Source: Gracilimonas sp. | GTDB lineage: Bacteria; Bacteroidota; Rhodothermia; Balneolales; Balneolaceae | Assembly: GCF_017641085.1 (NCBI RefSeq) | Contig: NZ_JAEPPI010000002.1 | Span: 124,001 to 188,000, forward strand | Direction: 5' to 3' | Length of the DNA stretch: 64,000 bases | Shown: piece by piece, positions 15,182 through 54,023 of the stretch | Position numbering within the stretch: the stretch's first letter is position 1 | Layout: each line of letters starts with the position of its first letter | Made by a program: the position numbers and the translations under genes | Notes under the pieces: model-generated | Seen by the model: only the letters and a program-made list of their open reading frames with translations | The model's database searches: none | Told to the model about the DNA's origin: nothing

Positions 15182-16449
15182 TCAACCTTATATTTTTTTG
15201 TTAAATTAATTATCCAAATTAAGTTTATTACCTGTATTAATATGCTGACTCCACTGAATAATCCAATAGCAAGGTAAATACCACCCATATTTGCTCCTGC
15301 AATTATAGCTACCACTCTTATAATGAAGAGAGCTATCTCAAAATAAAACGATTTATTATGCTCGTTATAAATCAAAGGAATATAGGTTACAGGAGAAATT
15401 AGGAAGACAACAAATAAAAAAGGCGCCAATAATTGAACCAACTCACCTGACACTAACCATTCTACCCCAAAAACAAACTGAAAAATTTCCGGCCCGAAAA
15501 AAGTAAGAATACCGAATGGAATCACTGATAACATAAAAAGTTGTTTAAGTGTTTTTTTGGTATAACCTCTTAAACTAATTTTATCGTTATACATTTCAGA
15601 TACTTTTTGACTGAATACCTGATAAAAAGCACTGGCTATTAATTGTACAGGTACAATACAGACCATATAGGCCAGACCGTAATAACCAACCGTTTTTTCA
15701 TTAAAAAAATAACTCAGAAGTATTGGTATTACACTTAATGAGAGGGCGTTTACAAATGCATGGGGAGCATTTACTTTCAAAAACTTCTCATACTTTTTCA
15801 TCAAATAAGAAGCCCTTTTTAATGAAAAAGAAGAGGTTAAATAATTATCTACTTTATTCAATTTTCTTAAAAGGTATCCTGAAGAAAATAGATCCCCGGA
15901 TAGCTTGCCAATAATTAACCCTCCACTTAAAAACCCCATTGCCCCAAGAATTACCTGGAAGCCCCCCACTAAAACTGACCTGATCGTTTTGCTAACTGAT
16001 ATAGGACTATACTCTTTTTCTCTGTTTAGCCCATTCTGTGAAGCTTTTATAACAGCAAATAAAAGAATGTTTATAGGTACTAAAAATAAATATGCCCCCA
16101 TAGAGGGACTATTGAATATCTGGAGAATCTCTTTCCAAAATACCAAAGTAATCAACATTACAACCATTGCAACGCCAATGGTTAATAGCATAGCAACTTT
16201 AAACAAATGCTGCGCATTATAGCGACTCTTGGTTATTAAAATCGCAAAGTCATACCTCCCGGTTGCAAAAGAACTAATTAGAGAAAGCATGGCCAAATAA
16301 ATAGTAAATACTCCAAAATCAGTAGCATCATACATCCTGCTTATTATCGGAGAAACTATCACAGGGACAAATAGCGCAAAACCATTTCCAACAACCAAAG
16401 TAAAAATATCCCTCAACTCACTGGGGATTTTTTTATAAAGCTTTTTCAT
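15178..16449 (-). CDS. Wzx-type polysaccharide flippase (MOP/RfbX family)
   Basis: Inner-membrane protein of 423 aa with about 12 hydrophobic helices, expected to flip lipid-linked oligosaccharide repeat units to the periplasm. The N-terminus is typical of the family: LVVGNGFALFVPVIVSPIISRMYDATDFGVF, split here over helix one and the conserved DFGVF turn. Long hydrophobic stretches continue to the end (ILIQVINLIWIINL). It precedes the C5-epimerase gene with a 4-bp overlap. Local sequence is clearly AT-rich relative to the housekeeping genes outside the locus, which is common in polysaccharide loci subject to transfer. Confidence 0.85.
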   Translation of the reverse strand: MKKLYKKIPSELRDIFTLVVGNGFALFVPVIVSPIISRMYDATDFGVFTIYLAMLSLISSFATGRYDFAILITKSRYNAQHLFKVAMLLTIGVAMVVMLITLVFWKEILQIFNSPSMGAYLFLVPINILLFAVIKASQNGLNREKEYSPISVSKTIRSVLVGGFQVILGAMGFLSGGLIIGKLSGDLFSSGYLLRKLNKVDNYLTSSFSLKRASYLMKKYEKFLKVNAPHAFVNALSLSVIPILLSYFFNEKTVGYYGLAYMVCIVPVQLIASAFYQVFSQKVSEMYNDKISLRGYTKKTLKQLFMLSVIPFGILTFFGPEIFQFVFGVEWLVSGELVQLLAPFLFVVFLISPVTYIPLIYNEHNKSFYFEIALFIIRVVAIIAGANMGGIYLAIGLFSGVSILIQVINLIWIINLTKKYKVE

Positions 16450-49654: not shown

Positions 49655-52156
49655 CTAATTCCCCACAAAGAAAACAGCATTCCCAAACAGCAGTTTACCG
49701 TTGTGCCAGAAACCGCGGAACAGGGGATTGTCAATCATATACACTACATGACCTGCCCCCATATCCTGAACACCGAAAGCAAGCGTGTGCTCCAGAGATT
49801 CCTTCGCTTTATTTCCCACAAAACCGCTGCGGTGAGCTCCCGGCTTGGCCGCCCCAACATTCCACCCGTTTGCAAGATAATCAAAAGCAGAAGAACCCAA
49901 TTTCAGTGACATGTAATCTTCATCATACCCGAAAGCTAAAGGGTGTGAGGTATCCATCGAAATCTGGAATATGCTGCCGGGATTAAAGTACTGTGCCCGT
50001 TCGCGAGAAGCTTCTCCATACTTTTGAAGCTTGTCTTCAGGGTCTTCACTTTCCTCATTGTCTCGCTCTTTTCTTTTGAGGCTGAAGCCATCCTTTCCGG
50101 CTAAGTCATTATTGGCACTTCCAACGGCAATTAAGGTTCCGCCCGAACTTACCCATTCTTTAATAGCATCCAGTTCTCCACTTCCGATAGCACTGCCATA
50201 GGTATCCGGCAAAATTAGCACGTGATAATCATCCCAGTTTACAGAACCCACATCATCTGCATTAATCAGATTTACCGGGTAGTTGATTTGCTGATCGAAG
50301 TAGTTCCAGATATGCCCCACCATGTTAGAATTGGTTCCTTCACCGGAAAGCAAAGCCACTTTAGGCTTCTCAATATAGCGGACCGAAGATGACCCAAAAT
50401 CTTTGCCGGAATCCACAAATCCTGTAGTAACAGGAGTCACAATCCGGTTCAGCAAATTCGCTTCATCCTTCACAATTTCGTCAAACTTATCTCCCAGTTT
50501 TTCATTGCCATTACGCGTGATGATTAAGGTGCCGGGAGCATACTCTTTTCCGTTCAGAGTGAAGGCCTTTTCAGCATACCGGACCGCAACACCTTCATCC
50601 AGCAGACGCGCCAGGTATCTCAAGTCTTCAATAGAATTCCATTTTGCGAGATAAGCATACGGCTTGTCGATAACCGGAGTGAGCTCGTCTTCCATACTCA
50701 TTGAAAGGGGCTCGGTATCAAGCTGACCTTTGATTGCATAGCCATCCACTCCATAGGCATAATGCATTTCCCAGGCGGTGATATCATAAGTGAGTGAATC
50801 TGCAAGCTCCGGCTTTGGTTCAAACAACACCCGAACCAGCGTCCCCTTGGGTTGATACGTGCTAATCACATAATCACCTCCCTCGATGGAAACCCGACCC
50901 GTTTCACCCGTGCTGTAATCGTATCCGTTTGCATTGGAAGAACGGCTTGCCACTCCAAAATCGATGCGCTGATTTACCAGGTATCTCAACAGCCGGGATA
51001 CTTTATCCAGGTTGCTGCTCTTTTTCACTACAAAGGTTTTGTATTCGCCGGCTCCATTTCGGTTTGTATTGGTGAAATAATCCGAAAACTCCTGAATCAC
51101 CCGTTTCGAATTTTGAGCGGTAATTTCCACTGTAGAAAGTCCGCTTACGGTATGATGGGTTAGCCGATCAAGTAAAGTAAGCGTATCCCCTTCAGCGGTG
51201 ATTACTCCGCGCCCGGCAGCACTGTGGCCGGCCTGCTCGTAGGTCATCCCGATAGCCCCATTGAATGTAGGCCAGGTATCCCCGTAGCTTGGATAGAACA
51301 GGTCAAAAACCTCGCGGGTAAAGTACAGCCAGTTTTCTTCGTCAAAATATTTGGTGTGGTTTTTACCAATCATGGTCTGAAACTGCCGCTGCCAGTCTGT
51401 GATCGCCATATGAAACGGCTCGGCTGCCGGAGCGAAATAATACGGTGAATTGTATCCCTGCTCATGGAAGTCGACATGTACATGAGGCATCCACTCGTTA
51501 TAAACGCGGATTCGCTGCTGACTCTCAACCTGCGTTTGCCATGCCCAATCCCGGTTCAGATCAAAATAATAGTGATTGGTTCTGCCGCCCGGCCACGGTT
51601 CATCATGTTCACGCGTTTCAGGATGTACATTCTTTTTCTCCCCAACCACACTTCTGTACCAGTTCACATAACGATCACGACCGTCCGGATTTACCATCGG
51701 GTCCATAACTACCACGGTGTTTTCCAGCCAATTAGCATGCTCCGTAACCAGTTTATAAACGGTATTCAGGGCAGCTTCACTGGATGAGGTTTCATTTCCA
51801 TGCACGTTATAACTCAGCCATACAATCGCCTTTTGATTGGGACTCGGAGTACCGGCTTCAAGGTCAGCCAGTTTTAAATTATTAGTACGGATTTCATCCA
51901 GATTTTGGTGATTAGCCTCGGTTGTAACCACCGCATACATCAGCTCACGCCCTTCGTTGGTGGTTCCGTATTGGGTAAGTGAAACCATGGGGGATTCATC
52001 AGCTACGTGCCGGAAATAATTCATCACTTTATAATGGGGCGTCCACTTTTCACCCAATTCATACCCTAAAAATTCAGCCGGTGACTGAAGCTGGGCAAGC
52101 ACACTTCCGGTAACTAAAAAACAAGCTGCAACAGCTGTAAAAACAAATTTCTTCAT
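49655..52156 (-). CDS. Secreted M14-family zinc carboxypeptidase
   Basis: Exported metallopeptidase of 833 aa. A signal peptide (KKFVFTAVAACFLVTGSVLA) precedes the M14 domain at about residues 40-350. Zinc ligands His119 and Glu122 are in NVHGNETSSSEAAL, the third ligand is probably His231 in HVDFHEQGYNSPYYF, and the catalytic Glu is probably Glu307 in MTYEQAGHSA. The long C-terminal half includes a ThuA/GATase-like region (HVLILPDTYGSAIGSGELDAI) and ends in an antiparallel beta segment. This large M14 architecture is common in marine Bacteroidota-type bacteria and likely serves extracellular peptide use. It is a single gene. Confidence 0.9.
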   Translation of the reverse strand: MKKFVFTAVAACFLVTGSVLAQLQSPAEFLGYELGEKWTPHYKVMNYFRHVADESPMVSLTQYGTTNEGRELMYAVVTTEANHQNLDEIRTNNLKLADLEAGTPSPNQKAIVWLSYNVHGNETSSSEAALNTVYKLVTEHANWLENTVVVMDPMVNPDGRDRYVNWYRSVVGEKKNVHPETREHDEPWPGGRTNHYYFDLNRDWAWQTQVESQQRIRVYNEWMPHVHVDFHEQGYNSPYYFAPAAEPFHMAITDWQRQFQTMIGKNHTKYFDEENWLYFTREVFDLFYPSYGDTWPTFNGAIGMTYEQAGHSAAGRGVITAEGDTLTLLDRLTHHTVSGLSTVEITAQNSKRVIQEFSDYFTNTNRNGAGEYKTFVVKKSSNLDKVSRLLRYLVNQRIDFGVASRSSNANGYDYSTGETGRVSIEGGDYVISTYQPKGTLVRVLFEPKPELADSLTYDITAWEMHYAYGVDGYAIKGQLDTEPLSMSMEDELTPVIDKPYAYLAKWNSIEDLRYLARLLDEGVAVRYAEKAFTLNGKEYAPGTLIITRNGNEKLGDKFDEIVKDEANLLNRIVTPVTTGFVDSGKDFGSSSVRYIEKPKVALLSGEGTNSNMVGHIWNYFDQQINYPVNLINADDVGSVNWDDYHVLILPDTYGSAIGSGELDAIKEWVSSGGTLIAVGSANNDLAGKDGFSLKRKERDNEESEDPEDKLQKYGEASRERAQYFNPGSIFQISMDTSHPLAFGYDEDYMSLKLGSSAFDYLANGWNVGAAKPGAHRSGFVGNKAKESLEHTLAFGVQDMGAGHVVYMIDNPLFRGFWHNGKLLFGNAVFFVGN

Positions 52157-52237
52157 ACTTACGAGGTAATTATTCCTTTTTAAATGTTGGTTAATGGTAG
52201 GTATTCAAAACCGAGTGCACAAGTAAATTTTGGTAAG

Positions 52238-53164
52238 TCAGTTCAGAGCCTGAAACCGTTGTTCCAGAATTTCAAAGTAGGCTTCTTTTTTTTCGTCGCT
52301 TAAAAAACTGATTTTAATTAGCCTTTCCCATTCCTGGCGTGCATCCCAAAGATCTTTTTTAATAGTTGTGAGCACTTTATTATTCAACTCCATTCGTTCT
52401 TCTCCAAAATACTTGAAAAAAATAGCCTGAGTGAAGTTGGACTTCTTCCCCTTCAGTGGAAGTGCCATCTCTTCCACGGGGTTTGACATTACGATCGTTG
52501 TATTTAAAAGGTCATAAGCCGGAGAAAGCTCTGTTTTTTGATCTCTGTATATAAAGGAGAAGTTTTTTAAGTGCATGTCTTCGTTTCCGCATAAGAAACA
52601 AAACAAAGTCCTTCGAAATAGCCTCATTTTCTCCACCATGGGAAAAGTACAGTACTTATCAATTAGTGAAATTACTTTCTCCATCGAGTAATTGTATTTT
52701 GTTTCCCGGCTCATTCCTGCTACCTGAGCAAAATCTTCAACATGAACTTTACCTGCTTGCCCGAATCTGTCGAACCGCTTAATGAAGTAAAGCAGCGACT
52801 GGTCTTTCGCATAGATCAATCCATGTAATGGCACTTCAATACCTGCTGCCTTAGCCATTTTCATCGTTACATCTTCATTTTCAGGAACTTCATCATAGTC
52901 TGATAACTGAGGCTTCAGTATGTAACTTCCCTGCCTGTCCACAATTTTAAACGATTCGTTCTTAATACTTAATTGTGCACTTAGTTTGGGCTGTACTCCG
53001 GCTATCGACATTTTCGTCATTCTCTTTTGGGCTTCCTGAACCTGCTCCTTTCGGTCAAAAGGCAAAGGTTTTAACTCCTTTAGTGCAGGGTTGAGCTTAT
53101 TAAGACCGGTTTTACTGTACCGTCCCGAGGCGATTCTCTCGTAGGTTATCGGACATCGATTCAT
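52238..53164 (-). CDS. hipT: HipT-like serine/threonine kinase toxin (HipA C-terminal and N-subdomain-2 part)
   Basis: Kinase toxin of a split HipA system, 308 aa. The start (ATGA overlap with hipS) has a perfect AAGGAGGT 7 bases upstream. The phosphate-binding loop is MSIAGVQPKLSA around residues 52-63. E. coli O127 HipT has a Ser-Ile-Ser pair here, whereas this protein has Ser53-Ile54-Ala55. The ATP-site Lys is likely in SYILKPQ (Lys84). The catalytic motif is GNEDMHLKNFSF with Asp196 and Asn201, and the metal-binding Asp is in AYDLLNT (Asp218). Full-length HipA is about 440 aa; the missing first subdomain is the separate hipS product. In E. coli O127 HipT targets tryptophanyl-tRNA synthetase; the target here is unknown. 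Confidence 0.88.
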   Translation of the reverse strand: MNRCPITYERIASGRYSKTGLNKLNPALKELKPLPFDRKEQVQEAQKRMTKMSIAGVQPKLSAQLSIKNESFKIVDRQGSYILKPQLSDYDEVPENEDVTMKMAKAAGIEVPLHGLIYAKDQSLLYFIKRFDRFGQAGKVHVEDFAQVAGMSRETKYNYSMEKVISLIDKYCTFPMVEKMRLFRRTLFCFLCGNEDMHLKNFSFIYRDQKTELSPAYDLLNTTIVMSNPVEEMALPLKGKKSNFTQAIFFKYFGEERMELNNKVLTTIKKDLWDARQEWERLIKISFLSDEKKEAYFEILEQRFQALN

Positions 53165-53475
53165 GCTTTAACCTCCTTAACAGTTACTGCCCCAACGGTA
53201 TCCTCACCTACCGCCATCAATTGTGCAAACCGATCGTTTCTGTCAATTTTTTTACTTCTTAAAAGAGCCTCCAGGTTTACGCCTTCCGGAAGCAGTCCCT
53301 CAAAAAAAGGCGGGAAGTGTTCAAATTTAAACTCTTTGTCTTCAACAGGCATCGTTACTGATATAGCTTTCCCTTTGTATGAATCATCGTAAATGAATCG
53401 ATATTTTTGGTTTAGCTCATCCTCAATTAGCAAACCGGCTTCATTATTATGCATATAAACCTTAGCCTTTCTCAT
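53161..53475 (-). CDS. hipS: HipS-like antitoxin (HipA N-subdomain-1)
   Basis: A 104-aa protein equal to the first subdomain of HipA: AKVYMHNNEAGLLIEDE, FPPFFEGLLPEGVNLEALLR, KIDRNDRFAQLMAVGEDTVG and GAVTVKEV. In the E. coli O127 HipBST system this small protein, not HipB, neutralises the kinase. It overlaps the hipB stop by 14 bp and the hipT start by 4 bp, so the three genes form a tight operon. It has its own stop codon and a perfect AAGGAGGT upstream of its start, which argues against a simple frameshift in hipA. Confidence 0.87.
   Translation of the reverse strand: MRKAKVYMHNNEAGLLIEDELNQKYRFIYDDSYKGKAISVTMPVEDKEFKFEHFPPFFEGLLPEGVNLEALLRSKKIDRNDRFAQLMAVGEDTVGAVTVKEVKA
53171..53178 (-). 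promoter_or_regulatory. Perfect ribosome binding site for hipT
   Basis: AAGGAGGT on the minus strand, inside the last codons of hipS and 6-7 bases before the hipT ATG. It confirms that hipT is translated from its own start. Confidence 0.85.
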
Positions 53476-53698
53476 TTGACACCTCCTTCACACAGTATTC
53501 CATCAACGGACTCTCTAATTTTATATGAATATTGAGTACGCTGCATACTTTTTGAAAGCTCTCAAATTGAACTGTTTCTTTGCCATGCTCGATATCGAAT
53601 ACTACCGTCTTACCTACACCTGCTAAATCAGCTAATTGTACTTGTGTTAAATTACTCTGTTTTCTATGACAGCGAATAAGTTTTGCAAAATAATTCAT
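53462..53698 (-). CDS. hipB: HipB-like XRE-family repressor
   Basis: Small helix-turn-helix protein, 78 aa from the ATG at 53698. The frame extends 22 residues further upstream (to 53764), but that extension would lie across an operator repeat and is not family-like, whereas MNYFAKLIRCHRKQSNLTQVQ is. The HTH is at about residues 15-45 (LTQVQLADLAGVGKTVVFDI, then EHGKETVQFESFQKVCSVL). It should bind the array of palindromes just upstream and autoregulate the operon, with HipS and HipT modulating binding. It is the first gene of the set and overlaps hipS by 14 bp. Confidence 0.9.
   Translation of the reverse strand: MNYFAKLIRCHRKQSNLTQVQLADLAGVGKTVVFDIEHGKETVQFESFQKVCSVLNIHIKLESPLMEYCVKEVSNEKG
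53481..53488 (-). promoter_or_regulatory. Perfect ribosome binding site for hipS
   Basis: AAGGAGGT on the minus strand, 5 bases from the hipS ATG and inside the 3' end of hipB. Fixes the start of hipS. Confidence 0.85.
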
Positions 53699-53709
53699 AA
53701 TAATTTTAT

Positions 53710-53727
53710 TTACCGTTATAGCAGTTA
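53710..53727. promoter_or_regulatory. HipB operator-like repeat 1
   Basis: TTACCGTTATAGCAGTTA, an imperfect palindrome 11 bp upstream of the hipB start. Matches the shared pattern TTAC-N-G-C/T-TT-N3-CAGTAA seen at three other sites. Confidence 0.6.
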
Positions 53728-53780
53728 TTAATCTTATTATACAACTCGAACATCCTAAAAACAATGCAAAATAAAAATAA

Positions 53781-53798
53781 TTACCGCTTAAACAGTAA
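53781..53798. promoter_or_regulatory. HipB operator-like repeat 2
   Basis: TTACCGCTTAAACAGTAA. Directly followed, at a 20-bp period, by repeat 3, so bound dimers would lie on the same face of the helix. Confidence 0.65.
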
Positions 53799-53800
53799 TT

Positions 53801-53818
53801 TTACAACTTGAACAGCAA
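53801..53818. promoter_or_regulatory. HipB operator-like repeat 3
   Basis: TTACAACTTGAACAGCAA, in tandem with repeat 2 at a 20-bp spacing. A still weaker relative (ACAACTCGAACA) occurs at 53741-53752. Confidence 0.55.
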
Positions 53819-53851
53819 TTTGCCCTGAACAATCCCTTAAAAAAGACTTTA

Positions 53852-53869
53852 TCACTGCTAAAGCAGTAA
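53852..53869. promoter_or_regulatory. HipB operator-like repeat 4
   Basis: TCACTGCTAAAGCAGTAA; on the minus strand TTACTGCTTTAGCAGTGA. It contains the best palindromic core, ACTGCT-AA-AGCAGT (53854-53867), which may be the highest-affinity site. Confidence 0.65.
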
Positions 53870-54023
53870 ATAATTGCATGCTAAAAGTGAGCAAATAGTA
53901 AACTCTTCAACACTCATGCAATGTGTTTGCCCGTTTTTTCTACAGAATGGCAGTCATTCCCCATTATCAAAATGGTTATCTTTTGTGTATGATTAATCCA
54001 AAGCTCCAAATCAATTATCTAGC

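Follow-up and report, generated by a model that had tools for sequence, protein, structure and literature searches.

The DNA 5' of hipB in the window (the whole 64,000-nucleotide stretch of Gracilimonas sp. DNA that was analysed) contains three operators, not four or five, that share the motif TTACYGYYWWRRCRGTAA on the hipB strand and start 71 and 71 bp apart, leaving gaps of 53 and 53 bp. We consider it probable that this array is the autoregulatory promoter of a Legionella-type hipBST operon and that HipB dimers on the three phased operators hold the promoter bent or wrapped. The layout itself is the one already known from Legionella, found here in a new host. New are the occurrence of the three-site geometry in about a dozen phyla despite saturated gap sequences, the quantised spacings (70-73 or 60-62 bp, and 40-41 bp in a distant clade with another operator), the survival of the spacing rule through changes in operator sequence, and a period of about 10 bp in A/T content that is phased with the operators. 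The features of the locus are as follows.

52232..53957, no strand assigned: inserted cassette, hipBST plus operator array, missing at the same site in sister genome L041
52238..53164, minus strand: hipT, HipA_C kinase without N-domain, 308 aa (PF07804, E 4.1e-50), presumed toxin
53161..53475, minus strand: hipS, HipA N-terminal domain alone, 104 aa (PF13657, E 7.4e-24), presumed antitoxin
53462..53698, minus strand: hipB, HTH_3 repressor, 78 aa (HTH_3, E 2.4e-9; TIGR03070 HipB, E 2.7e-18, below the TIGR03070 cut-off)
53710..53727, minus strand: O1, TAACTGCTATAACGGTAA on the hipB strand, 20.6 bits, position matched in orthologs
53728..53780, minus strand: O2-O1 gap, 53 bp, with the likely hipBST promoter inside
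53736-53741, minus strand: predicted -10, TATAAT, placed by eye
53759-53764, minus strand: predicted -35, weak TTGTTT, 17-bp spacer, placed by eye
53781..53798, minus strand: O2, TTACTGTTTAAGCGGTAA, 24.7 bits, 18/18 positions of the degenerate consensus
53799..53851, minus strand: O3-O2 gap, 53 bp, with the phased A/T pattern and including the discarded 53801 site
53852..53869, minus strand: O3, TTACTGCTTTAGCAGTGA, 22.0 bits, position conserved in orthologs

The three genes overlap on the minus strand (53698-52238) and encode, in this order, the hipB HTH protein, the hipS N-domain and the hipT HipA_C kinase. This gene order and domain split are shared with HipBST of E. coli O127:H6, where HipB is a transcriptional repressor (PMC6581861, PMC10627512). 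From its sequence, HipT is presumed to be a toxic kinase that HipS neutralises; the genome has no HipA_C locus besides hipT. The ATG at 53698, which had been preferred as the hipB start in the sequence-only reading, is also the start codon in the closest orthologs. When a profile of 16 HipT orthologs was compared with solved chains, the closest was Legionella HipT(Lp) (8ezr, E 2.5e-144), whereas E. coli HipT (7ab3) was only distant (E 3.2e-42). HipT was thus nearer to HipT(Lp) than to E. coli HipT, as expected for the Legionella-type subclade, which is widespread in the Bacteroidota/Chlorobiota/Fibrobacterota group (PMC10653801). The HipT subclade is therefore shared with Legionella although the phylum is different, and Legionella sequences nest within the HipT tree. 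Legionella also provided the best HipT match on plasmids, and phages gave one weak match only.

The operon and the array lie together in the cassette. In the sister genome L041, homology ends at about 52231 and restarts at about 53958; where the window has 1.73 kb, L041 has about 31 bp. The ppx protein of this cassette-free congener is 95% identical, whereas a closer congener (98% by ppx) carries the same cassette and array, and from this comparison we infer that the operator array arrived with hipBST. A promoter-like sequence for ppx (53964-53993) lies outside the cassette and is present in the empty-site genome, and ppx appears to have its own promoter outside the inserted DNA. No ppx was found beside any other hipBST locus searched.

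To score operators, we used a matrix trained on 55 related arrays, for which shuffled upstream DNA yields scores of 15 bits or more at a rate of about 0.0005 per 260 bp. In the rest of the window no score exceeded 16.6 bits. That score belonged to an operator-like match at 53184-53201, in the 3' end of hipS, which was absent from every other locus and was judged to be due to chance. A consensus-free score of similarity plus symmetry placed the array above 300 of 300 dinucleotide shuffles, and a near-consensus search of the 3.49-Mb genome returned the array as three of the four best matches. The genome's fourth-best site (C3:105890) was rejected as an operator since it falls within an ABC-permease ORF, as was the repeat-rich region at 15521-16005, which is AT-rich and without an operator family. 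All three sites have the form TTACYG-N6-CRGTAA, and 18-bp operators separated by 53-bp gaps begin at 53710, 53781 and 53852, 5' of hipB. O1 lies 12-29 bp 5' of the hipB ATG and is predicted to overlap, or to sit just 3' of, the transcription start; O2 lies 71 bp from O1 and just 5' of the predicted -35 region, and O3 is 71 bp from O2. The TTGTTT element was too weak for a consensus promoter scan to detect, and no fixed position of a -10 or -35 emerged across the loci compared.

This layout closely resembles that of Legionella pneumophila hipBST (lpg2368-2370), for which Lin et al. 2023 described three 18-nt inverted-repeat operators with 53-bp gaps, presenting these as the first operators of any HipBST system (PMC10653801). 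HipB was shown in gel shifts to bind each of those operators, including 50-bp fragments with a single site; the authors stressed intermediate occupancy, not cooperativity, and no wrapping was reported (PMC10653801). The gap periodicity, the 61-bp variant and the operator-sequence switches described below were not found in the searched text of PMC10653801. In Legionella the first operator lies about 24 nt 5' of hipB. The motif of the window recurs in Legionella steelei and L. feeleii, as TTACTGCTATAACAGTAA at spacings of 71/72. A difference is that O1 is the most conserved site in Legionella, whereas it is the lowest-scoring of the three in the window. The E. coli O127:H6 hipBST promoter is reported to lack the Legionella motif. 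The operators of the two-gene E. coli K-12 HipBA system are likewise several palindromes, with another motif (TATCC-N8-GGATA), to which a HipB dimer binds and bends the DNA. None of the sites in the window has the TATCC-N8-GGATA form. The spacers in E. coli HipBA are smaller (as summarised in PMC10653801). A search of the open-licence literature for wrapping or helical phasing of toxin-antitoxin operators yielded nothing on HipBST besides the Legionella and E. coli papers.

The geometry was compared across 80 named contig loci and 16 loci from whole genomes, all oriented on hipB. Among 89 non-redundant loci with 138 adjacent operator spacings, 116 spacings were 70-73 bp (mean 71.2) and 16 were 60-62 bp (mean 61.2); the rest were three at 41, one at 31 and two longer ones (106 and 168), and none of the 138 was near 51 or 66 bp. 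The matrix that located operators in these relatives was partly trained on the same loci, and the pattern search and the alternative motifs are independent of it. In that search, two sites separated by 52-54 bp were matched 12 times, at 9 places in 8 of 394 genomes, all of them hipBST loci, and the reversed control gave no match in the same genomes; the exact pattern misses the window itself, whose sites are slightly too degenerate. The window's nearest named relatives in this comparison point to Balneolaceae. The hosts, as named in the record titles, include Balneolota, Bacteroidota, Ignavibacteriota, Neomarinimicrobiota/Fidelibacterota, KSB1, Latescibacterota, Spirochaetota, Bdellovibrionota, Fermentibacterota, Delongbacteria, Acidobacteriota, Thermodesulfobacteriota and Legionella, and the three-site geometry extends over about a dozen phyla. 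Identity between gaps was 0.36/0.40 compared to 0.34/0.37 after shuffling, so the sequences are saturated, but their length is still 52-55 bp.

At most loci O3-O2 equals O2-O1 within 1-2 bp, and where three sites were seen, both intervals were usually shortened together to 61. This did not hold in two Marinilabiliaceae loci, where O2-O1 is 61 but O3 lies at 106-107. On the HipT tree the 61-bp class requires about three changes, at least two of which are forced by well-supported branches. For the spacings of 31, 40-41, 61 and 71, a fit through the origin gave 10.18 bp per turn. Two related loci, L071 (Ignavibacteriales) and L094 (Bacteroidota), have additional operators interposed among the usual sites, at 31 and 40-41 bp, and these distances too are whole turns.

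Judged from the sequences compared, the spacing outlives changes in the operator itself. In Thermodesulfobacteriota, most hipBST loci carry operators of the form TTCCCY-N6-RGGGAA spaced by 70-72 bp, and within the class to which the window belongs, two GC-rich members use a different, GC-rich motif at 72 bp. A distant HipBST clade (L025-L038, about 40% HipT identity) has TATACCCGN3RGGTATA, usually in three copies at 40-41 bp, an operator for which no description was found in the open-licence literature. In the loci L055-L059, L087, L092, L105, L113, L123 and L127, which have TTCCCY-N6-RGGGAA, residue 31 of HipB, within the recognition region, is N and not T. This correlation (T with TTACYG, N with TTCCCY) is confounded by descent and was not used as evidence.

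The gap DNA, whose sequence is not conserved, showed a periodic composition. A/T maxima occurred at about 1-4, 11-13 and 20-23 bp from the operator edges, with G/C maxima between them, on both sides of the operators. The power near a 10-bp period was 0.144 compared to a maximum of 0.0056 in 2000 shuffles, which treat the loci as independent; as a guard against shared descent, 18 loci in which no gap was 50% alike were analysed separately, and the periodicity again exceeded all 2000 shuffles. It held with the edges trimmed, in either gap alone and in arrays mostly outside Bacteroidia, and was absent from control DNA 87-140 bp 5' of O3. The period and phase were first noticed in the profile and then tested on the same loci. 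Nearest to an independent check are the gaps of the Thermodesulfobacteriota arrays (CCC group), where the periodicity exceeded all 1000 shuffles, and the 61-bp class, where it exceeded all 2000 shuffles with six of the 61-bp loci already included in the first look. With the edges fixed, the 40-bp class was marginal (202 of 5000 shuffles were as high), and a per-locus test went in the right direction in 54 of 55 loci. In the window, when tested for the phase-locked pattern with edges fixed, the O3-O2 gap gave z 2.43 (p 0.009) and the O2-O1 gap gave z 0.75 (p 0.23), which was not significant.

These results suggest the following model. HipB dimers, alone or with HipS and HipT, would bind the three 18-bp operators, whose dyads are 71 bp apart, a distance of seven turns if each is about 10.15 bp. 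Binding of HipB to O1-O3 is predicted from the Legionella case, and repression by HipB in Gracilimonas sp. would follow the precedents of Legionella, where HipB binds each operator (PMC10653801), and of E. coli, where it represses the hipBST promoter (PMC10627512). Because O1 is at the predicted start and O2 is 5' of the predicted -35, bound HipB would stop transcription. Most likely about 160 bp of DNA would be bent, or wrapped superhelically, as one stretch with the three dimers on its inner face, as suggested by the equal spacing, a pitch close to 10.2 bp per turn instead of 10.5 bp, and the A/T steps about every 10 bp in phase with the dyads. When free antitoxin drops, the complex would open and the operon would be re-expressed. 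Counting against the model, only one of the window's two gaps was significantly phased with edges fixed, and the A/T phasing could instead mark contacts of HipT with the backbone or minor groove.

Other explanations of the array were weighed against this model. With a region at 31% GC, palindromes might arise by chance in AT-rich DNA, but that reading is refuted by the conservation across phyla, and together with the matrix scores, the 300 shuffles and the confinement of the 394-genome pattern to hipBST loci this leaves it with practically no weight. The sequence-only reading had proposed four main sites and a weaker fifth copy at 53741, with two of the sites in tandem at 20 bp and a possible effect on the divergent phosphatase gene. 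The sites at 53710, 53781 and 53852 stand (20.6-24.7 bits). The site at 53801, though it matches 14 of 18 degenerate positions, scores below 9 bits, as does 53741 with 9 of 18 matches; neither has an ortholog counterpart at its position, and with 53801 the tandem pair loses its support. The stretches 53736-53752 and 53798-53814 are a direct repeat of each other, the first holding the TATAAT on the hipB strand, and the two discarded sites look like duplicated promoter DNA rather than operators. Control of ppx is also unlikely since the operators came with the cassette, ppx and its promoter-like sequence are kept in the cassette-free genome, and no other hipBST locus has ppx beside it. As a whole, that arrangement is very improbable, and it overlooked the exact 71-bp regularity of the true sites. 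Its proposal that several operators serve HipB autoregulation fared better: in almost every close hipBST relative the operon is preceded by this motif and geometry, gel shifts show that HipB binds the Legionella arrays (PMC10653801), and neither the genome scan nor the 394-genome search found the pattern at many unrelated sites. Cooperative, ratio-dependent control is a plausible hypothesis for the array.

Two further alternatives accept all three operators. Separate dimers might occupy them independently and grade repression by occupancy, with the 71 bp reflecting promoter size or inheritance. The 53-bp gap is indeed about the size of a promoter core, and the binding of Legionella HipB to 50-bp single-site fragments, with gel shifts suggesting intermediate occupancy, fits this idea (PMC10653801). 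However, promoter size cannot make O3-O2 equal to O2-O1 within 1-2 bp, inheritance alone would not keep the gap length because the gap sequences are saturated, and both the joint shrinkage to 61 and the helix-phased A/T in the gaps are left unexplained, so we regard independent operators as unlikely. Alternatively, the dimers on O1, O2 and O3 might be bridged by HipT-HipT or HipS contacts with the gaps looped out. Helical-phase-dependent spacing is also expected from such short-range looping, and Schumacher and co-workers reportedly found in 2015 that HipA dimers bridge neighbouring operators in E. coli HipBA. Loops of 53 bp would be stiff, however, and A/T phasing that extends over the entire gap is explained no less well by contact or wrapping. 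On these data looping and wrapping are not clearly separable, and we give looping roughly a one-in-four place among the readings, below the bent or wrapped complex.

If the bent or wrapped complex is taken further, hipBST promoters in about a dozen phyla might encode a nucleosome-like particle with about 160 bp on three HipB(ST) at a pitch of about 10.15 bp per turn. We put this forward tentatively, as an idea that may well fail. If it is true, both repression and the toxin supply that follows from it may respond to supercoiling as well as to antitoxin level. From the comparison itself a rule emerges: whole helical turns, mostly 4, 6 or 7 of them at about 10.2 bp each, separate the HipB operators of HipBST systems, and the spacer DNA is patterned for bending. 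This rule provides a sequence signature for locating HipBST promoters, and ratio sensing by a tripartite toxin-antitoxin operon becomes a directly testable structural question.

Two observations concern the surroundings of these operons. In the window, hipT ends 82 bp before the next gene on the same strand, an M14-type peptidase ORF (49655-52156, named by eye), and because only these 82 bp (52156-52238) separate the end of hipT from the start of the peptidase ORF, read-through from the hipBST promoter into it is possible. A Flavobacterium-like genome (G324) carries two hipBST loci, on contigs C7 and C10, each with a full array of the same motif, and cross-regulation between the two loci is possible.
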